From Rubidibacter lacunae KORDI 51-2 (GTDB lineage Bacteria; Cyanobacteriota; Cyanobacteriia; Cyanobacteriales; Rubidibacteraceae): a DNA stretch of 64,000 nt. A program made the translations under genes and the position numbers. Each line of letters begins with the position of its first letter. Position 1 is the first letter of the stretch. The notes under the pieces were generated by a model that worked only from the letters and a program-made list of their open reading frames with translations, was not told where the DNA came from and did not search any database. Shown piece after piece: positions 3,426 to 60,170 of this stretch. Location: positions 62,001 through 126,000 of the forward strand of contig NZ_ASSJ01000081.1 in assembly GCF_000473895.1 (NCBI RefSeq), written 5' to 3'.

Positions 3426-3562
3426 GGCGGTGCCTGGGGAGCGTCACAGTTAAGATGGAGTCCGGAAGCGGGAATTCGCCGAGGGCTAACTGCCTGTGCG
3501 TACTTCCTGCTTCTGAATAGTGTTTATATTATGCTCGCCTCGATTCGCGAGTTGCCAGCACG

Positions 3563-5008
3563 ATGACCCTGACTGTTTACAATACGCTCGCCCGCCGTTC
3601 GGAACCCTTTGAAACCGTCGAACCCGGAAAGGTGCGGATGTATTGCTGCGGCATTACGGTATACGACTTGTGCCATCTGGGTCACGCCCGCACCTGCACG
3701 ATTTGGGATGTGGTGCGGCGGTATTTGCGCTGGCGCGGCTTCGCAGTGGAGTACGTTCAAAACTTTACCGATATTGACGATAAGATTCTCAACCGGGCGC
3801 GTACGGAAGGCGTCTCGATGCAGGAGATTTCCAATCGCTACATCTCTGCATACTTCGAAGATATGGACCGCTTGGGCGTGCAACGTGCCGACGCTTACCC
3901 GCGCGCCACCGACGCGATCGACGGCATCCAGCGCTTGGTGCGCGACCTCCAGGTCAAAGGGTATGCTTATCCATCCGGCGGCGACGTCTATTATGCAGTC
4001 CGCAAGTTTTCCGACTATGGCAAGCTCTCCGGACGCGATTTAGACAATCTGCAAGCGGGGGCGAGCGGTCGCGTGGACGCTGGAGATGCCGCAACATCGC
4101 AGAAACGCGACCCACTTGACTTCGCACTGTGGAAAGCGGCCAAGCCCGGCGAGCCGTTTTGGGAGTCACCATGGGGTGCGGGCCGACCGGGCTGGCACAT
4201 TGAATGCTCTGCGATGGTGCGCGATCGCCTGGGCTCCACCATCGATATCCACACCGGCGGCGGCGATTTGATCTTCCCGCACCACGAGAACGAGATCGCT
4301 CAATCGGAAGCGGCAACCGGCAAGCCACTAGCGCGGTATTGGTTGCACAACGGCATGGTCAAGGTCGGCGGCGAAAAAATGTCGAAGTCGTTAGGGAACT
4401 TCATTACCATCCGCGACTTGCTCGACAAGCCAACGGATCCGATGGTGGTGCGGTTGTTCATTCTGCAAGCCCATTACCGCAAGCCGATCGACTTTACAGA
4501 TGAAGGGCTGCAAGCAGCGGCGAACGGCTGGGAAACGCTCAAGGACGGTTTGCTATTCGGCGATCGCTTTGCCGATCGACTGGGCTGGAGTTCGACCGAG
4601 GCACGCGATCTCGATGCTGAAGCCCGCTTCATCGCTGCTGCAGACGACGACTTTAATTTCACCAACGGTTTGGCGATTCTCTTCGAGCTGGCGAAAGAAC
4701 TGCGTAAGGCAGGCAATTTGATCGTCCACAACGGAAAAACGGCCGTCCGCGCTGCTGAACTAGAGGGGAAATGGCGATCGCTGGTGGAGCTGTCCTCCGT
4801 TCTGGGGGTGGTGGCGCAACCGGAAACCGAAGCGGCGATCGCCTCCGGTCCCAGCGATGCCGAAGTCGAAGAACTTATTCGCCAGCGGACGGCGGCACGG
4901 AAAGCCAAGCACTTCGCTGAAAGCGATCTCATCCGCGACGAGCTTCAAGCCCAAGGGATTACTCTCATTGACAAACCTGGCGGTGTCACGGATTGGCATC
5001 GCACTTGA
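3563..5008 (+). CDS. cysS: cysteinyl-tRNA synthetase
   Basis: Class I aminoacyl-tRNA synthetase of 481 residues that charges tRNA-Cys with cysteine. The first zinc-binding Cys follows MY (residue 28), the HIGH-type motif is HLGH (38-41), the second zinc-binding region is GWHIECS, and the KMSKS motif lies in GEKMSKSLGNF. A DALR-type anticodon-binding tail with a C-terminal extension follows. Length is normal for the family. The gene diverges from the COG0523 GTPase gene with a 137-base spacer. A -10-like TATATT/TATTAT stretch is visible around 3526-3533. The ATG at 3563 is preceded by a weak GCCAGCACG leader without a strong Shine-Dalgarno sequence. Confidence 0.98.
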   Translation: MTLTVYNTLARRSEPFETVEPGKVRMYCCGITVYDLCHLGHARTCTIWDVVRRYLRWRGFAVEYVQNFTDIDDKILNRARTEGVSMQEISNRYISAYFEDMDRLGVQRADAYPRATDAIDGIQRLVRDLQVKGYAYPSGGDVYYAVRKFSDYGKLSGRDLDNLQAGASGRVDAGDAATSQKRDPLDFALWKAAKPGEPFWESPWGAGRPGWHIECSAMVRDRLGSTIDIHTGGGDLIFPHHENEIAQSEAATGKPLARYWLHNGMVKVGGEKMSKSLGNFITIRDLLDKPTDPMVVRLFILQAHYRKPIDFTDEGLQAAANGWETLKDGLLFGDRFADRLGWSSTEARDLDAEARFIAAADDDFNFTNGLAILFELAKELRKAGNLIVHNGKTAVRAAELEGKWRSLVELSSVLGVVAQPETEAAIASGPSDAEVEELIRQRTAARKAKHFAESDLIRDELQAQGITLIDKPGGVTDWHRT

Positions 5009-5182
5009 TATCGGATGATGCTTTAAAAACAGCGCGGTTTCAGCATAAAGGTGTCGGAGCGGATAGCAAGGAAGGGGCGATCGCCAATAATGTCCAAAAA
5101 GTAGGGTCACAAGTTTCTGCTCGGAAACCTCGGTCTATGTGACTAAGAGCTAGGGGCGCGTGTAACCTTCTAAAGAGAGAAT

Positions 5183-5359
5183 TTACAGCTGTTTGCTGAG
5201 TTTGGCGGACAATGTGCCGCGGGCGTGTTCGACCAAGCGGGTGATGAGCTGTTTGAGCAGCTCCTACTCGCCCAGGATTTGCTCGGAACCGAAGTAATGT
5301 TGCAGGAGTTGGTTGAGGAGCTGGTCGGTTTTGGAGGGTTCTGGCTTGCGTCTGGGCAT
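5183..5359 (-). pseudogene. IS256-family transposase N-terminal fragment
   Basis: Read leftward from an ATG at 5359, the frame gives MPRRKPEPSKTDQLLNQLL, then SEQILGE, a TAG stop, ELLKQLITRLVEHA and a TAA stop at 5183. This matches the start of IS256-type transposases, which usually read LLDQLLKDY then LLGEDGLLKQLTKRLVE. Only the first 57 or so residues remain, and they carry an internal stop. No downstream transposase domain is found, so this is a relic of a second IS256 copy, separate from the one at 970-2168. Confidence 0.7.
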
Positions 5360-5472
5360 GGGTTGCGGTCTCCTATTGAGTTATCTCTCAGACCGCTTAC
5401 ACAAAAAACTTTGCAGGCTTGGGCTTGGGAGGCGATCGCCTCCGATCGAAGCAACCGACGCGATCGCCAGAT

Positions 5473-6555
5473 TTAGGAAGCTAGTGCCGACGCACGCGGT
5501 TTGGCGAAGATCATCCGCCCGGCTGACGTTTGCAGCGCAGAGGTCACAATGACCGGCAACTCGGCTCCGAGGTGCTCGCGTCCATCATCTACAACAACCA
5601 TCGTGCCATCTTCAAGGTAGCCGACGCCCTGGGCTGGCTCCTTACCTTGCTTGAGGATCTTGAGCTGCAAGGTATCGCCGGGGAGATAGAGCGGGCGTAC
5701 TGCCTGTGCGAGGTCGTTCACATTGAGCACTGTCACCTGCTGCAGATCGGCCACCTTGTTGAGGTTGTAATCCGTAGTGAGCAAGACGCCGTCGATGTCC
5801 TGAGTCAGCCGTATGAGCTTAGCATCAACGGTTTGAACGTCCTCGTAGTCGCCGGCGTGAATTGTCAACCGACCGGGATATGCTTCCTGCATGCGCTTGA
5901 GAATGTCGAGGCCTCGCCGCCCGCGTCCGCGCTTCCGATCGTTTGCGGCATCTGCTAGACGCTGCAACTCCTCGAGCACAAATGCTGGTACGAGCAGTTG
6001 ACCCTCGATGAAACCGGTACCCAACAGTTCTTCAATTCGACCATCGATCGCGCAGCTCGTGTCGAGTACCTTCGTGGCAGCGGGCTTGAGCGTGCCCTCA
6101 GCAACCAGGATCGACTGCATGCTGTTGGGGTTGATCAGGCGTAGGAACGATCTTCCGTGGGTATCGGCAAGACTGACTCCCATAAACGCAAACATCACGC
6201 TGCCCAGAACGGCAACCAGCGGTTTGATGAAAGCCAGCTCTGTTGGAATCGGCAATAGGAACAGGGGGGCGAGCATGAGATTGGCTAGCAAAAGCCCGAT
6301 CGCCAATCCAGCCGAACGCGTCAAAATGATTTCTACGGGCGTGTTGCGGATTTGCGCTTCCAGACGGCGGTAACTGGCTTGCGCCCATAGTCCGACTGCC
6401 AGACCGAAAATCGCGGTAAACCCAGCCGTCACCCAACGCAAGGCATGCACGTTGCTGACAGTTGCTTGTATCGATTCAGGAAGCAGATCCACGGCATCGT
6501 AGCCGATTCCCGCAGCTGCCAGGATAAAAAGAGCAATGATGATGGCGTCAACCAT
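5473..6555 (-). CDS. membrane PIN/TRAM-domain protein (YacL-like)
   Basis: 360 residues. Four hydrophobic segments occupy about the first 150 residues. A PIN nuclease-type domain follows, opening with VLDTSCAIDGR and containing further acidic residues typical of the metal-binding site (ELQRL..., DAKLI..., TTDYN). A C-terminal TRAM domain (about 290-350) is predicted to bind RNA. This matches the YacL family found in Firmicutes and cyanobacteria, whose exact substrate is not well established. PIN domains are usually metal-dependent ribonucleases, so a membrane-tethered RNase role is possible. The ATG at 6555 opens the first membrane helix. Its coding strand is opposite to that of the neighbouring hemW-like gene. 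Confidence 0.9.
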   Translation of the reverse strand: MVDAIIIALFILAAAGIGYDAVDLLPESIQATVSNVHALRWVTAGFTAIFGLAVGLWAQASYRRLEAQIRNTPVEIILTRSAGLAIGLLLANLMLAPLFLLPIPTELAFIKPLVAVLGSVMFAFMGVSLADTHGRSFLRLINPNSMQSILVAEGTLKPAATKVLDTSCAIDGRIEELLGTGFIEGQLLVPAFVLEELQRLADAANDRKRGRGRRGLDILKRMQEAYPGRLTIHAGDYEDVQTVDAKLIRLTQDIDGVLLTTDYNLNKVADLQQVTVLNVNDLAQAVRPLYLPGDTLQLKILKQGKEPAQGVGYLEDGTMVVVDDGREHLGAELPVIVTSALQTSAGRMIFAKPRASALAS

Positions 6556-6926
6556 TAGATTCGGGTGCAGAGAACTTGCACGGATGAATGGTTTGGCAGA
6601 CTCGATTTCGCAAGAATTTCGTGCGAAAACAGAAGTGGGCTTCGTTCATTATATCGGGCGCGAATCGCGCGATATTTGACGGGAATATCGACCGTGCTGT
6701 TGCTGATAAACAAGCACTCGACGCGCCTCTTCCCCCTTTGCTGAGGGGCACTCGCAGGGCTACGGCTGTGAGAGTCTCCAGCTTTTAGGCATTTCCTGGG
6801 GGCTGCAGTTAAGTGAGGGAAATACGGCAAATGTAGTGCGAGCTTTTGCAACAATTTGCGAAGAAACGCGACCGAGTTTGCGTTAACGTAACGAATATTG
6901 ACGCTCCTAGTCATCGTTTTCACGGA
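6556..6926. other. divergent spacer between PIN/TRAM gene and hemW-like gene
   Basis: This 371-base spacer must contain promoters for both divergent genes. A TTG at 6846 is in frame with the hemW-like gene and could extend it by 27 residues, but I treat that part as leader. No repeat or RNA gene was recognised. Confidence 0.35.
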
Positions 6927-8198
6927 ATGCAGTTTTCTCCTGTCGTCCGCGGGCCCGACTTGCCCGAAGCCGTCGCCGAGTGCTCGCCAACGGCAGCCTA
7001 CGTTCATATTCCGTTTTGCCGTCGTCGCTGCTTCTACTGTGATTTTCCGATCTCGGTTGTTGGCAATCGCGCTACAGCAGGGTTCGAGAATGTAGTCGAG
7101 CGTTACGTAGAAGCATTGTGTCGGGAGATCCGAGCCACTCCGCTTACGAATGCAAGGCCGCTGGCGTCGGTATTCTTCGGCGGAGGGACGCCTTCTTTGT
7201 TGCCGGTCGCTCAGCTCGCGCGCATCCTGGAGGTGCTAGGAGAACGGTTTGCGATTGCGACTAATGCCGAGATTGCCATGGAGATCGATCCCGGTACCTT
7301 CAATGTCGAACAGCTGCGCGGTTATCGCACGGCAGGGGTCAACCGCTTCAGTCTGGGCGTGCAAGCCTTTCAAAACGAGTTGCTCGAATTGTGTGGGCGA
7401 TCGCATTGCGGTCAAGACATCATGGCGTCGATCGAGATCGTCCGTCAGGTAGGGATTACCAACCTCAGCCTCGATCTGATCTCCGGGTTGCCACACCAAA
7501 CCTTGGTGCAATGGAACGCTTCGTTGCAACAGGCGATCGCGATCGCGCCCCAGCACCTCTCTTGCTACGATCTGGTCTTGGAGCCGACGACCGTCTTTGC
7601 CCGTCGTTACCAGCCGCAATGCCCTCCGCTGCCGTCCGACGAGACCGCCGCCCAAATGTACCGCCACGCACAGCAGGTGTTGGGGGCTGCCGGTTACGAG
7701 CATTACGAGATCGGAAACTACGCTCGCGCGGGTTATCAGTGCCGACACAACCGCGTTTATTGGGAAAATCGTCCTTATTTCGGCTTTGGTGTTGGTGCCG
7801 CTAGCTACACGAATGGGCAGCGCTTCACGCGTCCTTGCACGCGCACGAGCTATTACGCGTGGCTTGATGCCTACGAAGCGGCTGGGGGCACGATTGACGT
7901 CCTGCCCAACACGCCGACAGAGGAGTTACTGGAAACACTGATGTTAGGTTTGCGCTTGGTTGAAGGGATAGATTTGACCGCGCTCGCCGCTCGATTTGGC
8001 TCTAAGTTGTTGGGTGCACTTGCACCCTGCCTGCGACGCTACGAAGGCGCGGGTTGGGTTGAAGTCGTCGCAATAGATGGGAGCAGCAGTGAGGTAGGCG
8101 ATCGCCTGCCTGCCGCCGGGCGCTTACGTCTGAGCGACCCAGAAGGTCTGCTATGCTCGAATACGGTGCTGGCAGCGCTCTTTGAGATACTGTCGTGA
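6927..8198 (+). CDS. hemW: HemW-like radical SAM protein (coproporphyrinogen III oxidase family)
   Basis: 423 residues from the ATG at 6927. The radical-SAM cluster motif appears in YVHIPFCRRRCFYCDF (CX3CX2C with the HIPF lead-in), followed by the glycine-rich FFGGGTPS motif that contacts S-adenosylmethionine and the EIDPG motif. A C-terminal HemN_C-type region is present. Proteins of this type with CX3CX2C but lacking the longer HemN N-terminus are usually heme chaperones (HemW) rather than true oxygen-independent oxidases. An upstream TTG (6846) would add 27 residues with no homology I recognise, so the ATG is preferred. No other heme gene is adjacent. Confidence 0.88.
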   Translation: MQFSPVVRGPDLPEAVAECSPTAAYVHIPFCRRRCFYCDFPISVVGNRATAGFENVVERYVEALCREIRATPLTNARPLASVFFGGGTPSLLPVAQLARILEVLGERFAIATNAEIAMEIDPGTFNVEQLRGYRTAGVNRFSLGVQAFQNELLELCGRSHCGQDIMASIEIVRQVGITNLSLDLISGLPHQTLVQWNASLQQAIAIAPQHLSCYDLVLEPTTVFARRYQPQCPPLPSDETAAQMYRHAQQVLGAAGYEHYEIGNYARAGYQCRHNRVYWENRPYFGFGVGAASYTNGQRFTRPCTRTSYYAWLDAYEAAGGTIDVLPNTPTEELLETLMLGLRLVEGIDLTALAARFGSKLLGALAPCLRRYEGAGWVEVVAIDGSSSEVGDRLPAAGRLRLSDPEGLLCSNTVLAALFEILS

Positions 8199-52515: not shown

Positions 52516-53163
52516 CTAGGTTTCGACTGGATGCTGGCCGTAGAACGGCACGGCGTCAGACCAGTGCGATCGCGTCCCTTGTGCCCATTCCCAACGCGCG
52601 AGTTCTAGCAACCCCGTGACGGTATCGCCGAGGTTTTCGGGAGCCTCTAGTAAGCGGATGGGTGGAGCAATTGCTGCCAGTTCCTGTTGCCACTGCTCGG
52701 GGGCGATCGCGGTTTCCGTACGCCATGTCTGCCAGGTGCGCCCATCAGACGATCGTCGATAAATTGCAGCAAAGACCTGCTGACGGCGGGCGGGAAGCTG
52801 GATGGCAACGAGTTCGTTGGGGGCGGCGTCGGCAACCGTCATTTGCAGAAATGCTGCTAGTGCGGAAAGCGAAAACAACGGGATGTCGAGCTGCTGAGCC
52901 AGCACGCGCGCGGCCGTAACGCCAATCCGCGTGCCGGTGAAGCTACCCGGTCCGTTTGCCACCGCCAAGAATGCCAAATCTTGCCACGTTTGCGGTGGCA
53001 GAAACTCGGCTAGCAACCGATGCATGTGCACCGACAGCTCGCGACCGAGGTCCCAGACGCGCGATCGAGGCGTTCCGACACCGTCACTTAACGCCAGTCC
53101 GAATTGAGGACTTGTGGTATGCAGTGCCAATCCGTATCTAGTTGCTTCAGGCTCGGCCATCAT
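52516..53163 (-). CDS. tsaB: tRNA threonylcarbamoyladenosine biosynthesis protein TsaB
   Basis: 215 residues. ASKHA-type fold: YGLALHTTSP at the start, then VANGPGSFTGTRIGVTAARVLA, the most conserved TsaB block. It forms the TsaB-TsaD-TsaE complex that puts t6A on ANN-decoding tRNAs. The gene starts at a tandem ATGATG (53163 or 53160) that overlaps the TGA stop of the upstream kinase gene, so translation is probably coupled. The frame is open inside the kinase gene for 78 more codons, but the homology begins only here. Confidence 0.92.
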   Translation of the reverse strand: MMAEPEATRYGLALHTTSPQFGLALSDGVGTPRSRVWDLGRELSVHMHRLLAEFLPPQTWQDLAFLAVANGPGSFTGTRIGVTAARVLAQQLDIPLFSLSALAAFLQMTVADAAPNELVAIQLPARRQQVFAAIYRRSSDGRTWQTWRTETAIAPEQWQQELAAIAPPIRLLEAPENLGDTVTGLLELARWEWAQGTRSHWSDAVPFYGQHPVET

Positions 53164-56123
53164 CCGTCGCTCGGCAGCTCCAGTGCTAGATCGATTTGAG
53201 CGAGGAGTTCTACCATCGATTGTGAATGGCCGGGCAGTATGTGCGTCGCCACTTGCTGCAACAACTCGATTTGGTCGGGCGCGATCGCTGCCGCATCGGC
53301 TTGACTGGCAAGCGCTACCACCGGCAAATTGCCATACTGCTGGAGTAGCTCTTTCAGGGCGGCGATCGCGGTGGCATCCCACGGCGGCATGCCGCAATCG
53401 AGCAGTAGCAAGTCAATGCTGTGGTGATGGATCTGGCGGTAAGTTTCCGTCCAGGTCCGGGCCAAGGAACTGCGATAACCAGCCGTTTCGAGGTACTGTG
53501 TCAGTGCCTGCAACCACTCACTGCTGCGTTCGGCGTGCGTTTCGCGCGCGTCCGCGACCAGGATATGAGGGGCGTCCTCCTCTCGTGCGGAATTGGCACC
53601 AGCATTGGCAGCGACGCGGACGGCCGAGCGCAGGGCGGTAACTTGCGATGCATTTGGAGCCGCAAGACATGGAAACACCGACAGCGTTCCCAGATGGTGC
53701 GCGCGTTGCGCCGTCGCCGCATCCAAAATCACTAAAGGTAGGGCTGCCAGCTGCCGGAAACCGGTCAGGCGTTTCAGGTCTGCCAGCGGGATGTCGGTAT
53801 CGACCAGCACGATCGCGTCCGGCCGCCAGATGCGTGCTAGCAAGTCTGCTTGATCGAGGTCGTCGGCTTCCAGAACTCGATATCCGAGCTGCCCGAGCTG
53901 TGCGACGAGTTCGCGCTCGGTGTTGTGAAGGTCGGCAACACCCTTGTACGTACCCACGGTCAGCTGCAGCACTGTAAGGTCGTTTAGCGCGTTCGCCGGC
54001 GTCGCCACGATCTCTTGCTCGTCGTCCAAGTAGCGCCGCAGCGAGTCACCATCCACCGGCAAGTTCAGGAATCCGTTAGCACCGCAAGCAATGGCTCGGT
54101 CTTTCTCGGCGCTGGTAGAAGTAACCAATACGGGAATTTCTCGGGTACGCGCATCTGCTTTAAGCAACGTCAGGACATCCCATCCCGATAGCTGTGGCAG
54201 TAGCGGATTGAGGAGAATCGCCCGCGGTTGGAAGGTACGGGCTTTTTCTAATGCTTCGGTGCCAGAGCGCGCGATCGCCACGCGGTACCCGAGCTGCCGC
54301 AGTTGCCCGTTGAGATTATCGATGTACTGGGGAACGGCTTCGATCGCGAGCACGAGCTTGCTGCGCCCGACGGTGCTGCCGCCGCGAGCGGGATAGCGGT
54401 TATCCGGTGGCGGACAGGGCGGCATTAACAGCGTGAACTCACTGCCCTTGCCGACCTCAGAGATAAAGGTGATATCGCCGCCATGGGCGCGCGCCAACCG
54501 CTGGGCCAGCACCAATCCCAGTCCCGAGCCTTCAAACTGCCGCGTCAGCGGGTTTTCGAGTTGCTGGAACTTTTGAAAAATCATGTGCTGAGAGCCTGCT
54601 GGAATGCCGATCCCCGTATCCCATACGGCAAAGGCTACCCAGCCTTCCCAGTGGTTGACGCGTAAACCTACTTTACCCCCTGCTTTTGTGAACTTGAGTG
54701 CGTTCGAGAGCAAATGCACTAGCAATTGCCGTAAGCGCAAGTCATCGGCAACGATGCGCTCTAAGCCGGGCTCGACCTCCAGGGAAAATCCCACGTGCAG
54801 ATCGGACTGACCGCGTTCGATCAAGGCAGCGGCGGCATCGCGATAGGCGCGATCGCAGACATCCGCGAGCGACACCGACTGCGGATTGAGCTTGAGTTGA
54901 CCGGATTCCAGCCGCGTTAGGTCGAGGATGTCGTTGACCAACGTCATCAATTGCCGACCGCTCTGGTAAATCAGTCCCGTGTAGCGCTCTTGGCGTTGGT
55001 TGAGTTTGCCTAGGGTTTGTTCTTTGAGCAGGCTCGACAGTCCGACAACCGCCGTTAGCGGGCTTTTGAGCTCGTGGCTGATGCAGGCTAAGAACTCGTC
55101 CTTCAACCGATTGAGTTGCACCAGGTCGGCATTCTTCGCGGCAAGTTCGCGGCACAATTGCCGTTGTTCGCTGATGTCTGTTGCCAACACCAGCCATAAG
55201 GGTCCCGTTGCTACCGTTGGTAGCGGGGACTCCCAACCCAAAGCACTTGCTGTCGGGCCGGAGAGAGGCAGCTTCGCAAATTGCCACGCACCGCATGCCC
55301 GAGCGCGCTCCCCGTCCGCACAGAATGCACAACTATTGCTGCAGGCTGCCGGTGGGTCGTAAAATGCGGACGCTGAAACAAGTGCGGTTGATGCAATTGT
55401 CGCCGCTTTTGCTCCCAAGTCGCGCGGATCGCTCAAATTACACCACTGCTGCAGTGGTGCGTCAGCTGTTGGCGGTACGCCGGCCGATGCGAGCGGGGCT
55501 TTCTGCTCGCCAATCAATGGGCAACCATCGCATCGAGGGCAAATTTCCTCGCGCCAGCGATCGTTCTGGGCGATCGCGCGGCCGCTAGCATCTTGCATCA
55601 TGAGTGGTAGAGGCAGATGCTCCAACAACTGCAGCAGCGGCGCGAGTACTAGGGTCCTGGATGGCATCAGCTCCAGGCTAGACGCTTGCGCGGGGGACAA
55701 AGCTGCTGCGAGCGGCGGCGGCATGCCAATCGGCGGCGACGCTGGGTGGGGGGGTGCCAGTAGGGTTGCCAATACCTGACGGCTGTCGAGCAGTCCGAGC
55801 AACCGACCGTCCGCTGCGACCACGGCACATGCGGCAGCTGTAGAGTTCACGTAAGCGCCGACTTCAATCGGGGCAATATCGACCGGCACCACGGCAATCG
55901 GGTCGAGTAGTGTTGCCAAGTCTGGCAGCGGCGATCGCCCCACATACTTTAGCAACCGTGCCGGGCGCAGGAGCCCGAGGGGCGCTCCCCGATCGTTCAC
56001 GACGGCGATCGATTCATCAGGATCGGTTTGCAACTGCGCCAGAACCGTGGCGAGGTTGGCTGCGATCGCGCATGTTGCCACCGGGCGAACGAAGGGGCAG
56101 AGCGATTGGACGGGGGAAGACAT
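53160..56123 (-). CDS. hybrid histidine kinase: CBS pair, Cys-rich PAS-like region, kinase, three receiver-like domains
   Basis: 987 residues from the ATG at 56123. A tandem CBS-like region (about 8-125) is followed by a PAS-like segment with clustered Cys (CPRCDGC at 195-201; Cys 228; CSNSCAFC at 261-268; Cys 277). Then a histidine kinase: H-box SHELKSP (His 350), N-box LLSNALKF (471-478), G1 DTGIGIP (502-508), G2 GSGLGL (532-537). Three receiver-like domains follow. The first (about 588-700) has Asn in place of the acceptor Asp (LLNP, 637-640) and lacks the Lys; the second and third keep Asp (LVDTDIP; LLLDCGMP). No output domain or DNA-binding domain is present. The ORF continues upstream to 56429 without recognised sequence. 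It overlaps tsaB by four bases. Confidence 0.9.
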   Translation of the reverse strand: MSSPVQSLCPFVRPVATCAIAANLATVLAQLQTDPDESIAVVNDRGAPLGLLRPARLLKYVGRSPLPDLATLLDPIAVVPVDIAPIEVGAYVNSTAAACAVVAADGRLLGLLDSRQVLATLLAPPHPASPPIGMPPPLAAALSPAQASSLELMPSRTLVLAPLLQLLEHLPLPLMMQDASGRAIAQNDRWREEICPRCDGCPLIGEQKAPLASAGVPPTADAPLQQWCNLSDPRDLGAKAATIASTALVSASAFYDPPAACSNSCAFCADGERARACGAWQFAKLPLSGPTASALGWESPLPTVATGPLWLVLATDISEQRQLCRELAAKNADLVQLNRLKDEFLACISHELKSPLTAVVGLSSLLKEQTLGKLNQRQERYTGLIYQSGRQLMTLVNDILDLTRLESGQLKLNPQSVSLADVCDRAYRDAAAALIERGQSDLHVGFSLEVEPGLERIVADDLRLRQLLVHLLSNALKFTKAGGKVGLRVNHWEGWVAFAVWDTGIGIPAGSQHMIFQKFQQLENPLTRQFEGSGLGLVLAQRLARAHGGDITFISEVGKGSEFTLLMPPCPPPDNRYPARGGSTVGRSKLVLAIEAVPQYIDNLNGQLRQLGYRVAIARSGTEALEKARTFQPRAILLNPLLPQLSGWDVLTLLKADARTREIPVLVTSTSAEKDRAIACGANGFLNLPVDGDSLRRYLDDEQEIVATPANALNDLTVLQLTVGTYKGVADLHNTERELVAQLGQLGYRVLEADDLDQADLLARIWRPDAIVLVDTDIPLADLKRLTGFRQLAALPLVILDAATAQRAHHLGTLSVFPCLAAPNASQVTALRSAVRVAANAGANSAREEDAPHILVADARETHAERSSEWLQALTQYLETAGYRSSLARTWTETYRQIHHHSIDLLLLDCGMPPWDATAIAALKELLQQYGNLPVVALASQADAAAIAPDQIELLQQVATHILPGHSQSMVELLAQIDLALELPSDG

Positions 56124-56480: not shown

Positions 56481-57623
56481 ATGTATCTGGAGACGCTCCA
56501 CCTGCGCTCATTTCGCAATTACACCGACCAGCGCGTTACGTTCTCCGCACAAAAAACGATTCTGGTTGGCAACAACGCCCAGGGCAAATCAAACGCGCTC
56601 GAAGCCGTTGAGTTGCTCGCCACGCTGAAGAGCCACCGTACTTCGCGCGATCGCGATTTAGTCCGCAGAGATGCCGAGAGCGGGCAAATTCGCGCAACAG
56701 TTGCTCGTTCCAACGGCAGTTTGGAGCTGGCCATGACGCTGCGCGGGAAGGGCCGCCGTACTCTTGCCATCGAGGGCGAAGTGCTGCGCCGCCACCTCGA
56801 TTTTTTGGGCGCGCTCAATGCTGTTGAGTTCTCTAGCTTGGACTTGGATTTGGTGCGCGGCGCACCTGAATATCGCCGCCATTGGCTTGACGCCCTATTG
56901 GTTCAAATCGAGCCGATTTACGCCTACATCTTGCAAGAATACGTTCGCGTTGTTCGCCAGCGCAATGCATTGCTGAAATCGATTCGCAAGTCTCTCGGCG
57001 ACGGCGGTGATGCGACTACTGTGCCGCGTTCGGACTGGGACCAACTGGCCTTGTGGGACGCGCAGTTGGCAGCAGGCGGCTCGCGGGTGATGCGCCGCCG
57101 CGATCGCGTCTTGCAGCGCCTGATTCCCCTTGCCCAGCGGTGGCACGATCGTATTGGCGGCGGTACCGAACATCTGAGCGTGATCTACGCACCCAATGTC
57201 GAGTGCGATCGCGACGACCCGGCAGGTGTTCGCGCTGCCATCCTGGAGAAAATCAAGGAGCGCCGCCTCGCCGAACAGCACCTCGGTACGTCGGTTGTCG
57301 GTCCCCACCGCGACGAGATCGACTTGCAGATCGACGACACGCCCGCGCGAGCTTACGGTTCTCAGGGACAGCAGCGCACGCTCGTACTGGCATTGAAGTT
57401 AGCCGAGCTGGAGTTGATCGAAGCCGTGATCGGCGAGCCGCCCCTGTTGTTGCTCGATGACGTCCTGGCTGAACTGGATCCGATGCGCCAGAATCAATTG
57501 CTGGATGCCATTCAAGATCGCTTTCAGACCTTGATTACCACTACCCACGTCGATACCTTCGACGCACAGTGGCTGTCAGCATCGCAAGTGCTAGTCGTTG
57601 AAGCCGGACGGATTTCCCCCTAA
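56481..57623 (+). CDS. recF: DNA replication and repair protein RecF
   Basis: 380 residues. SMC-like ATPase: Walker A VGNNAQGKSN near residue 30, the characteristic opening MYLETLHLRSFRNY, and a C-terminal signature/Walker B region (GSQGQQRTLVLALKLAELE, LLLLDDVLAELD). RecF loads RecA at single-strand gaps with RecO and RecR. The ATG at 56481 is the first and fits the family start. It lies alone on this strand. The nuclease NurA, another repair protein, is 21 kb away and not linked. Confidence 0.96.
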   Translation: MYLETLHLRSFRNYTDQRVTFSAQKTILVGNNAQGKSNALEAVELLATLKSHRTSRDRDLVRRDAESGQIRATVARSNGSLELAMTLRGKGRRTLAIEGEVLRRHLDFLGALNAVEFSSLDLDLVRGAPEYRRHWLDALLVQIEPIYAYILQEYVRVVRQRNALLKSIRKSLGDGGDATTVPRSDWDQLALWDAQLAAGGSRVMRRRDRVLQRLIPLAQRWHDRIGGGTEHLSVIYAPNVECDRDDPAGVRAAILEKIKERRLAEQHLGTSVVGPHRDEIDLQIDDTPARAYGSQGQQRTLVLALKLAELELIEAVIGEPPLLLLDDVLAELDPMRQNQLLDAIQDRFQTLITTTHVDTFDAQWLSASQVLVVEAGRISP

Positions 57624-57893: not shown

Positions 57894-60170
57894 TTAGGAT
57901 TTGACATGGGGTTGACGGCGGCGCGATCGCCACCACCACCCCCCTGCGATCGCCAGTGCTATCGCGGCGGCTCCACCAATCCACTGCAGCACCGTCACCA
58001 GAGGGGTGGCGCGATCGGCAAGGGCAAATTGCCCAGAGAAGATTGCTATGAAGTTGGCTTCGGAGCGTGCTTTCCAAAAGGCCCTCAATGCTCTGAGCTT
58101 GTCGAAAGCATCACCTTCGCGCAGCGATCGGCCGATATCGTAGTCGAGAATTTGCAATCCCGGTTCGCTACTCGCGTGACGCGCAGCGGCAATGGTACGA
58201 CGGGCTTGTTGCTCTGCCAGGTCGAGCATGCTGGTCAGCCCTTGCGTGTTGTCAAACTCGGTTGGCACCCTCAGTCCGACTGTTTCGAGTTCGGGGTCGA
58301 ACTTGGCCTTCAAAGAATAGTATTTGGCAATCAGCGAATTCGCGCTGAGGTAGGCGAGGAGCGAACCACCGAGCTGCAGATAGGGGAGGTTGGTGCGATC
58401 GTCGAGTTCCTCGGCCAGCTCGGTTGTAGCCGCGAGTGCTGCATGCGCTAAGTAATAAGTTGCGTCAATAGTATTAAACTCTTCGCGCACGACATCGATT
58501 GCAACCGCTGTTGACTTGGCATGAGGTTGGATTGTCAGGGCTTCGAAGGCTTTGAAACTAGCATTGGCGGCTTGGAACAGGGTATTGCTGAAGCGCAATA
58601 CGCGATCGCGCTGCAAGACCGGTCCGGTGCCGTCGAACCCGAGCGCCAATGTATCCTCAACGATCTGCAGCCGTTCATCGGCTAGAGCAGGGGCAACAGC
58701 AGAATAAAACAGTGCCTGCTCGGTTTTTGTAGTGGAAGTATTGAAAGGCAATTTGCCAGACTCTAATTCCTGGAGTGACTGCTGGGCAAGTTTTTGGAAT
58801 CCGTTCGCAGCAATCCAATCACCGTAGGCACGCATTAGGTTAACGGCGTCGGACGCCGATCGCGCCTCGGTTCCGGCCAAACGCGCGAACAGTTCCTCCG
58901 CCCGCGAGTCCACCTTCGACCAGTGTGCGGCAGCTTGGGCAATCAAGTCGCGCTGCTGGCGGTGCGACTTGGTCTGGGCACCTGCGTCTGTATTGGAGGC
59001 AATAACCGAAGTTTCCGTGCGATCGGCATCAATCGCTGCGTTTGAATCGACTGCTGGATTTGTATTGGGAGCGTCGACCCTTTCAGAGGACGACGTAACA
59101 GCGTCGACGGCCAAAAGATTCCGAACGGCTTTAGCGAGCCACAATGCACTGAGGGTTTGGTGATAGGCATCGGCTAGATCGCCGTCTTTAAGGGATTGCT
59201 TGGCCGCGCTGAAGTTCTCGGTGGCGCTGACGAAACCTCTCCGGGCAAACGCTACCGGACTCGTGCCATCTTCAATGTCCGCAGCATCTGAGACTTCATT
59301 CTCCAATCCCAGTTCGCTGCCCAGAAATTTCCGCGGTTCTATCTTGCGGTAACGTGCTTGTAGAGCTTCCACCTGTGCAGTTGTCGCTGCATAGAACTCC
59401 GGGGTTAACTGCGGGCGCTCGTCCTTTGCACCGATCGGCAGCGGTAGCGGCCGCCCGGTCAAGAACCGATAGGCGTCGAAGATATTAGCAGCTTCGAATA
59501 CCTCCAACCCTGTCTCCTGACGGACGGCATCGACTTCCGCTGTTAGCTGCCCGGCCGGGATTGCAATTCGTCGCTTACCAGCCTCGCTCGCCCCTTGCAG
59601 CTTCAGAGGAATGCCGCCAACCGGTCCGATCGTGCCATCGGGGTTGATCGTACCGGTCATGGTGGTGTCGGCACGCACTTTATCGCCCAGCGCCAAAGCC
59701 AGGACGTGAACGGTAAATAGACCGCCCGCACTCGGTCCGTCTATCGAGCCGTTGTACTCGAAGGAAAACCGGCGGTGACCGAAGTCGCGGCCCAGCAAGA
59801 AGCTGGTGGTGGCGATCGCGGACCAAGCGGCCGATCGCCACTGGTCGCCAGCATTATCCAGACGCGATTCGAAGAACCCAACTTTTAATAACGGTGCGGG
59901 GTCGCGCTCGATACCGATCGTTGCCTGTCCCACACCGCCGGTCGGCGGCGTCGTCTGGCGAAAAACCATTACGTCCGCGTTGGATTCGCGGCGGCCGAAC
60001 GCCAGGGGCATTAATGCCAACACGGAAGGCGATCGCGACATCACTAGTGACGAAGTCGCGGCGATCGCTGCCAAGAAAGCGCCATGAAAGGCAATTGCGA
60101 CCGCCAAGCCGAGTGCCAGCAAGCTTGAGCCCGAGCGGAAAATACGTCGTCGAGATAAGCGTTGGAACAT
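57894..60170 (-). CDS. membrane-anchored Lon-type (S16) peptidase without AAA+ module
   Basis: 758 residues. An N-terminal signal-anchor (about 14-38) precedes a Lon protease domain (about 65-240). The catalytic Ser is in GPSAGG (Ser 147) and the Lys in GGIPLKLQGA (Lys 190), the same 43-residue spacing as in E. coli Lon. A long helical region follows (about 260-720) with many Ala/Leu/Gln, then a C-terminal membrane helix (about 722-745) and a short basic tail. There is no AAA+ ATPase domain, so it must use another partner or none. The domain is probably outside the cytoplasm. Its start ATG at 60170 begins the signal. Substrate unknown. Confidence 0.85.
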   Translation of the reverse strand: MFQRLSRRRIFRSGSSLLALGLAVAIAFHGAFLAAIAATSSLVMSRSPSVLALMPLAFGRRESNADVMVFRQTTPPTGGVGQATIGIERDPAPLLKVGFFESRLDNAGDQWRSAAWSAIATTSFLLGRDFGHRRFSFEYNGSIDGPSAGGLFTVHVLALALGDKVRADTTMTGTINPDGTIGPVGGIPLKLQGASEAGKRRIAIPAGQLTAEVDAVRQETGLEVFEAANIFDAYRFLTGRPLPLPIGAKDERPQLTPEFYAATTAQVEALQARYRKIEPRKFLGSELGLENEVSDAADIEDGTSPVAFARRGFVSATENFSAAKQSLKDGDLADAYHQTLSALWLAKAVRNLLAVDAVTSSSERVDAPNTNPAVDSNAAIDADRTETSVIASNTDAGAQTKSHRQQRDLIAQAAAHWSKVDSRAEELFARLAGTEARSASDAVNLMRAYGDWIAANGFQKLAQQSLQELESGKLPFNTSTTKTEQALFYSAVAPALADERLQIVEDTLALGFDGTGPVLQRDRVLRFSNTLFQAANASFKAFEALTIQPHAKSTAVAIDVVREEFNTIDATYYLAHAALAATTELAEELDDRTNLPYLQLGGSLLAYLSANSLIAKYYSLKAKFDPELETVGLRVPTEFDNTQGLTSMLDLAEQQARRTIAAARHASSEPGLQILDYDIGRSLREGDAFDKLRALRAFWKARSEANFIAIFSGQFALADRATPLVTVLQWIGGAAAIALAIAGGWWWRSRRRQPHVKS

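Follow-up and report, generated by a model that had tools for sequence, protein, structure and literature searches.

A hybrid histidine kinase with degenerate receivers in Rubidibacter lacunae belongs to a cyanobacterial family linked to kaiABC

A 64,000-nucleotide stretch of the genome of Rubidibacter lacunae KORDI 51-2 (contig NZ_ASSJ01000081.1, positions 62,001 to 126,000 of the forward strand), referred to here as the window, was analysed around one gene on its minus strand, at positions 53160–56123, that codes for a hybrid histidine kinase of 987 amino acids. The kinase is a member of a cyanobacterial protein family that is linked to the clock gene cluster kaiABC. Genomes (G), contigs (C) and loci (L) are named below by working numbers where these are needed, the window genome being G000. 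The open reading frame (ORF) was borne out as real. It extends further 5′, to 1089 amino acids, beyond the Met taken as residue 1; this Met was chosen as the start because homologues carry Met in the same column (47/60 and 73/81 sequences in two alignments, query counted). The same ORF and order of domains had been proposed in an earlier note made from the sequence of the window, and Pfam, structural models and the starts of homologues agreed with both. From the N-terminus the protein consists of a pair of CBS-like repeats, a PAS-like core broken by a Cys-rich insert, a HisKA/HATPase core and three receivers, all of which are given below with their minus-strand positions in the window.

Pfam thresholds were passed by HisKA (residues 341–408), HATPase (460–568) and one receiver (591–698). 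The phospho-acceptor His and the N, D and G residues of the ATP site were all present in the window kinase, which upholds the complete HisKA/HATPase core described in the earlier note. The HisKA/DHp helices (residues 335–410, positions 54894–55121) carry the phospho-acceptor His350 within an HELKS motif and the HATPase_c domain (residues 411–568, positions 54420–54893) has its N, G1 and G2 boxes intact, both domains being delimited from Pfam and alignment. Conservation was counted in 136 aligned members, rows sharing the same last 400 residues having been dropped beforehand. His350 was kept in all 136, E351 in 133, and Thr, Ser or Asn at position 354 in 136. HExx[T/N] is a phosphatase motif of HisKA kinases; its last position is occupied by Ser354 in the window kinase, and Ser was found there in 16 of the 136 members.

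Three receiver-like folds were predicted in AlphaFold models. Comparison with the PDB supported receiver 1; a second structural comparison was filled by receiver 1 and the CBS pair and barely covered receivers 2 and 3 and the PAS core. Catalytic columns were assigned by us from the alignment and secondary structure. Receiver 1 (residues 588–700, positions 54024–54362; Pfam, model and profiles) has Asn639 at the acceptor position and lacks the Lys, as had been noted when this receiver was called dead. The acceptor column holds Asn in 130/136 members and Asp in 3, and the presumed Lys column holds Leu in 125 and Lys in one. Receiver 2 (residues 716–850, positions 53574–53978; model and alignment) is a pseudo-receiver with no acidic pair on the first strand and with Cys or Tyr in the presumed Lys column in 133/136 members, Cys in the window kinase. 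Its acceptor column is Asp in 110/136 and Val774 in the window kinase, with Asp775 adjoining. Receiver 3 (residues 852–982, positions 53178–53570; model and alignment) is degenerate: Asp909 and one acidic residue are kept in the window kinase while Thr/Ser and Lys are missing, and across the family Asp is found at 858 in 105/136 members with the acceptor column being Cys in 82, Tyr in 14, Asp in 7 and a gap in 18. The full phosphorylation set (acid pair, Asp, Thr/Ser, Lys) is thus found in none of the three receivers of the window kinase. From these residues all three look unable to accept phosphate, and in most members phosphorylation of the receivers has apparently been abandoned. Of the earlier picture of three receivers, one of them dead, the number stands and the degeneracy appears to extend to all three. 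Output through receivers 2 and 3, also proposed, is unlikely because the receivers of the family lack the catalytic set, receiver 3 having mostly Cys at the acceptor and receiver 2 lacking the acid pair and the Lys.

Homologues of the kinase were searched for in 60 genomes of relatives, 46 of which gave strong matches (E≤1e-60). Some of these matches were to other kinases and covered no more than the kinase core. Long homologues were about 32–45% identical to the window kinase. Two rows, L034 (gene in two frames) and L082 (a duplicate of L014), were left out of the 60-row alignment. In a scan of named genomes the best 80 loci were used, from Spirulina, Nostoc, Anabaena, Microcoleus, Fischerella, Tolypothrix and others. 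Upstream of the kinase, on the opposite strand, BLAST clustering placed clusters that we took to be kaiA, kaiB and kaiC at 76, 74 and 74 of these 80 loci, respectively; a motif-based recount of kaiA gave a lower figure of 67. No response regulator was recognised among the listed neighbour clusters of the 80 loci. The linkage was then counted in a phylum sample of 244 evenly drawn genomes, 101 of which have KaiA (PF07688). A first search with the sensor part only found the kinase in 55/244 genomes, an undercount, and was replaced by a profile of the receiver part (E≤1e-30, with scoring limited to 7 candidates in each genome). The kinase was found in 65/244 genomes, each with one locus (two of them giving two pieces of one gene), and all 65 also have KaiA. 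In 57 of the 65 the kinase lies on the contig of kaiA within 6 kb, divergent to it in every case. The threshold of the receiver profile misses both Thermosynechococcus-type members; a full-length profile applied to four genomes added these two (G134 and G215), both divergent to kaiA, which brings the count to 59/67. Outside the 57 adjacent loci are G142, where a contig break falls inside the kinase gene and the sensor part adjoins kaiA, G242, where the kinase is on contigs C171/C172, and six genomes with kinase and kaiA on different contigs (G000, G032, G057, G149, G195 and G238). No kinase match was obtained in any of the 143 KaiA-less genomes, many of which are distant, so that this is weak evidence alone.

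As a control for gene order, 20 loci from 19 families were picked because kinase and kaiA are adjacent in them. The kaiC cluster was present in 19/20 and kaiB in 18/20, and the next most common neighbours in 7/20 and 3/20. The kai linkage is therefore specific rather than a reflection of general conservation of gene order. By hand count, 20 of the 28 KaiA-carrying families in the sample have the kinase and 19 have it adjacent to kaiA. The window copy has the traits of the family, namely the CBS pair, PAS, HisKA core, Asn in receiver 1, the VFPC-type motif in receiver 2 and homology from end to end.

In some members the ATP site has decayed. Of the 136 members, 9 had a change at one or more of six positions of this site. 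The G134 genome has a KaiC identical over 518 residues to a PDB chain (7dy1) that we take to be from Thermosynechococcus. Its kinase family member (710 amino acids, L206 3950–6082) is divergent to kaiA at 6299–7150, and its front part, out of reach of the Pfam CBS model, matches the family profile over 3–198. The N-box Asn is replaced by Trp, the G1 Asp by Glu and the G2 motif GTGLGL by EVTMGL; the HATPase fold is still recognised by Pfam (31.5 bits, cut-off 26.4). It has Arg at the acceptor of receiver 1, and receiver 2 is kept. G215 shows the same arrangement and decayed motifs, with 665/713 residues identical. Several ATP-site residues are also lost in the members of G207, G026 and G041, each of which lies beside kaiA, and Pfam found HisKA without HATPase in G207 and G026 and only a partial, sub-threshold HATPase in G041. 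Another five members (L031, L036, L200, L202 and L225) have one or two changes, where single changes could be alignment errors. The identity of each module was compared in 25 hand-picked divergent rows, four of them decayed (G134, G207, G026 and G041). Receiver 2 was the best-kept module, with an identity in decayed members of 0.38 against a mean of 0.39 for all pairs. Identity dropped in the ATPase (0.29 vs 0.47) and receiver 1 (0.23 vs 0.42), with DHp at 0.44 vs 0.58 and CBS at 0.23 vs 0.26. The comparison points to receiver 2 and DHp as the parts that matter once kinase activity is gone.

The sensor part begins with CBS-like repeat 1 (residues 8–60, positions 55944–56102), assigned from Pfam matches of members and predicted fold, and repeat 2 (residues 66–125, positions 55749–55928), assigned from predicted fold and PDB matches. 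In the window kinase the repeats fell under the Pfam cut-off (E 0.014); the CBS pair suggested in the earlier note was nonetheless recovered, as 41/48 aligned members matched the CBS model at E≤0.01 and residues 1–120 were predicted as a CBS pair (block pLDDT 72–98, AlphaFold model from alignments of relatives). The top PDB match of this model was 5iip_A (Z 13.3, 114 residues, rmsd 2.6). A sequence search of solved structures with residues 1–340 gave weak CBS matches; matches to the Cys region, at E 0.67–0.74, look like chance and were set aside. What we take to be the canonical ribose/phosphate motif of CBS domains, G-x-x-[ST]-x-x-D, occurs in neither repeat in any of the 136 aligned sequences. 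Binding of adenosyl nucleotides, which the earlier note had attached to the CBS pair, is therefore not to be assumed. The PAS-like region (residues about 155–320, positions 55164–55661) was placed by PAS_4 matches in 6/48 members and PAS-like elements in the AlphaFold model, and a PAS core at about residues 155–192 plus 279–320 is plausible on this model.

The PAS-like region is broken by a variable and probably disordered insert (residues 193–278, positions 55290–55547; alignments and model), most of which was modelled at low confidence (pLDDT<50 over 199–203 and 205–272). It holds 8 Cys within 86 residues, with Cys195 to Cys277 where the earlier note had placed them. Across 60 aligned members Cys was found at C195 in 5, C201 in 5, C228 in 11, C261 in 27, C265 in 11 and C277 in one, the query alone; in the columns of C198 and C268 Cys was outside the six commonest residues. 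In five sequences from the taxonomic family of the window (query and four others) C195, C201 and C228 were Cys in all five, and C198, C261, C265, C268 and C277 in the query only. The insert is nevertheless enriched in Cys across the kinase family, at 2.99% and 3.35% in two alignments compared to 0.08–2.3% in other regions and 1.1–1.2% in the kinase core; three Cys were found in the insert of 26/60 and 53/81 proteins and none in 8/60 and 2/81. These Cys sit at different places in different lineages, and the enrichment leaves room for a lineage-specific thiol or metal site. The best-kept Cys lie outside the insert, at C18 in CBS repeat 1 (125/136), C347 (56/60) and C423 (59/60) in the kinase core, and C819 in receiver 2 (103/136).

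Hybrid kinases and clock-associated kinases are known as kinds. Among the latter the family is most readily compared to CikA, which is tied to KaiABC (PMC13421787). Both are HisKA kinases, and the C-terminal receiver of CikA, which lacks normal phosphorylation chemistry, may have a counterpart in the degenerate receivers of the family. When the DHp domains of 27 kinases from five genomes were compared (two family members included), the closest was a kinase of an S. elongatus-type genome that, going by its sequence, we take to be CikA-like (0.48), by a small margin over the next (0.46 and 0.45). CikA differs in having a GAF domain, of which the window kinase gave no match at E≤1, having a CBS pair and PAS instead. 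The family kinase also has three receivers, and it lies beside kaiA in most genomes, unlike the three CikA-like genes that were found. The second clock kinase, SasA, is a histidine kinase connecting KaiC with RpaA (PMC13421787); its KaiB-like N-terminal domain found no match at E≤1 in the window kinase, residues 1–125 of which form a CBS fold. A receiver fold without phosphorylation is also found in the N-terminal pseudo-receiver of KaiA (PMC13421787), encoded in the very gene that adjoins most family kinases. Generic hybrid kinases (HrmK, TorS and ArcB) were the best partial NCBIfam matches, sharing HisKA/HATPase and a receiver at about residues 316–701. They scored far under the curated thresholds (for HrmK 272 bits, where 725 are required), and they differ from the window kinase, which has a CBS pair and a receiver 1 without the acceptor Asp. 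The CBS-rubredoxin protein Ta0289 (2qh1, 1pvm) combines a CBS pair with a Cys/metal part. It matched weakly in sequence over residues 39–113 (E 0.12–0.14) and also by fold, but the match covers the CBS part and not the Cys part, and Ta0289 has no kinase.

We lean, by a narrow measure, towards reading the family as clock-associated signalling proteins that resemble CikA and use their receivers for docking. The kinase would be an input or output protein of the clock with a CikA-like mode of action and a different build, its CBS/PAS part reading a metabolic signal. Its pseudo-receivers would serve docking instead of phosphotransfer: receiver 2, and receiver 1 where it is kept, would dock on a partner, which could be a Kai protein or the kinase's own core. 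The target of the DHp helices may then be a separate response regulator; RpaA is the simplest choice, for which the case is thin. In every lineage DHp would work as a phosphatase or phospho-exchanger, and members with an intact ATP site, the window copy among them, would act as kinases as well. A stronger proposal, that the family is an overlooked and widespread clock component, a kaiABC-linked kinase or pseudokinase that replaces or supplements CikA, with pseudo-receivers docking on Kai proteins and DHp dephosphorylating RpaA, appears to us possible yet doubtful.

Several observations weigh against a clock role. The receiver profile matches nothing in 36 of the 101 KaiA genomes, or 34 after the full profile was applied to four of them, in two of which, G090 and G213, it found no member. 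A tblastn search around kaiA in 16 of the 36 recovered one member (G134), fragments (G185), other kinase or receiver pieces in three and nothing in 11. In G185 (L220 8311–9597, plus strand) the fragments are 65–79% identical to the L099 kinase and most of the kinase core is gone; since kaiA is kept beside them, the kinase is dispensable there. The window genome and six others are not kaiA-adjacent on the assembly, with no break inside the gene to explain it. The linkage itself could come from a shared promoter region. Receiver 2, when compared by profile to the KaiA N-terminal domain or the CikA receiver, scored a probability under 1, in a test that is weak because the control pair KaiA and CikA was also unlinked (0.10; KaiA vs ordinary receivers 4.9). 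Receiver 1 scored 99.7 against ordinary receivers and 92.5 against the CikA receiver (three sequences), receiver 3 scored 97.8 and receiver 2 only 21 against ordinary receivers, and receivers 2 and 3 hardly resembled the CikA receiver. A shared origin with the pseudo-receivers of KaiA and CikA was dropped as an idea, the profiles giving no special likeness and the control failing too.

A rival reading is an ordinary orphan hybrid kinase that has an unlinked response regulator and no clock role, and that adjoins kaiA because breaking up an old divergent regulatory region shared by the two genes would be costly. This is rather unlikely in our view, even with no response regulator recognised among the listed neighbours, with non-kai neighbours in at most 7/20 control loci, with the gene persisting apart from kaiA in the window genome and a few others and with an S. 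elongatus-type genome carrying kaiABC without the family kinase. Adjacency in 57/65 genomes and co-occurrence with KaiA in 65/65, compared to those 7/20 loci for any other neighbour, speak against it, and an ordinary kinase should not retain both its locus and receiver 2 once the ATP site is gone, as the decayed members do. The S. elongatus-type genome is G090, the KaiC of which matches PDB chain 1u9i end to end; the searches gave matches there only to the kinase core and the receiver 1 region. About 1 kb upstream of kaiA in G090 lies a lone CheY-like response regulator (L205 4177–4548, plus strand), where other lineages carry the kinase on the opposite strand.

Two further explanations concern the window copy more closely. 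The earlier note saw in it a redox- or energy-sensing kinase with output by receivers 2 and 3, and a reading along these lines would have redox state or metal sensed at an Fe-S or Zn site within the PAS insert. We regard this as very improbable, despite the eight Cys in 86 residues, the three that are shared by all five same-family sequences and the enrichment of the insert, as most of these Cys are not conserved across the phylum, some members have none, the insert is mostly of low model confidence and receivers 2 and 3 are without the catalytic set. It is also conceivable that the family is clock-linked and that the window copy was re-used for a different present role once its tie to kaiABC had been broken and KaiA had lost its N-terminal part. 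The window kinase is on contig C81 beside recF and not adjacent to kaiA, and kaiABC is on contig C52, where the KaiA frame (L188 8291–8776, plus strand), followed by kaiB and kaiC, has 162 amino acids and aligns to the C-terminal half only, compared to KaiA frames of 276–323 amino acids in four same-family genomes. The additional Cys, found in the window copy alone among the five compared, would fit the same idea. However, the window kinase keeps every domain and every catalytic residue tested, and it is 43.7–45.4% identical, nearly end to end, to kaiA-linked kinases from three same-family genomes, which makes re-use improbable. A clock role for the window copy is still less certain because its gene is next to recF and lies on a different contig from kaiABC. 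In the same taxonomic family, no kaiA was found in the stretch read from G005, and G001 has a kaiA with stop codons (L189 about 5594–6505, minus strand) by a 520-residue kaiC frame and no kinase match. In G006 the kaiA-adjacent kinase (L203 about 3484–6215, minus strand) is in two frames of 548 and 526 amino acids, by a frameshift or a sequencing error.

The divergent neighbour of the kinase in the window (56481–57620, plus strand), at the place taken by kaiA in most homologous loci, codes for a RecF/RecN/SMC-type protein that we assume to be RecF. Downstream, a gene for a TsaD-family domain, presumably TsaB-like (52519–53163, minus strand), overlaps the stop codon of the kinase by four bases and is not part of the shared kai neighbourhood. 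Near recF, a 758-residue protein (57894–60170, minus strand) has a short match to the C-terminal domain of Lon protease and a hydrophobic stretch at either end.

No description of this architecture, its linkage to kaiABC or the pseudokinase members was found in searches limited to open-licence papers. We guess all2883 of Anabaena PCC 7120 and tll0480 of Thermosynechococcus to be locus tags of family genes. No mention of tll0480 was found in these searches, and all2883 is listed in a table on CRP regulons (PMC2633013). Substitutes for CikA were sought in Nostoc punctiforme in a 2025 study by way of GAF plus kinase domains (PMC12691664). Such a screen need not catch a kinase family with PAS and CBS domains. 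Most knowledge of the cyanobacterial clock comes from S. elongatus, and no family kinase was found in the genome of S. elongatus type that was examined. For the question of how signals enter or leave the clock in filamentous cyanobacteria the family is a direct candidate, because it is present in 20, and adjacent to kaiA in 19, of the 28 KaiA families. Structural studies of clock proteins commonly draw on Thermosynechococcus, and if the broader proposal holds, the pseudokinase beside kaiA in this organism would mean that the essential job of the family needs no ATP. With the ATP site lost and the His and receiver 2 retained, such members would offer a clean natural case in which kinase, phosphatase and docking functions may be separated.

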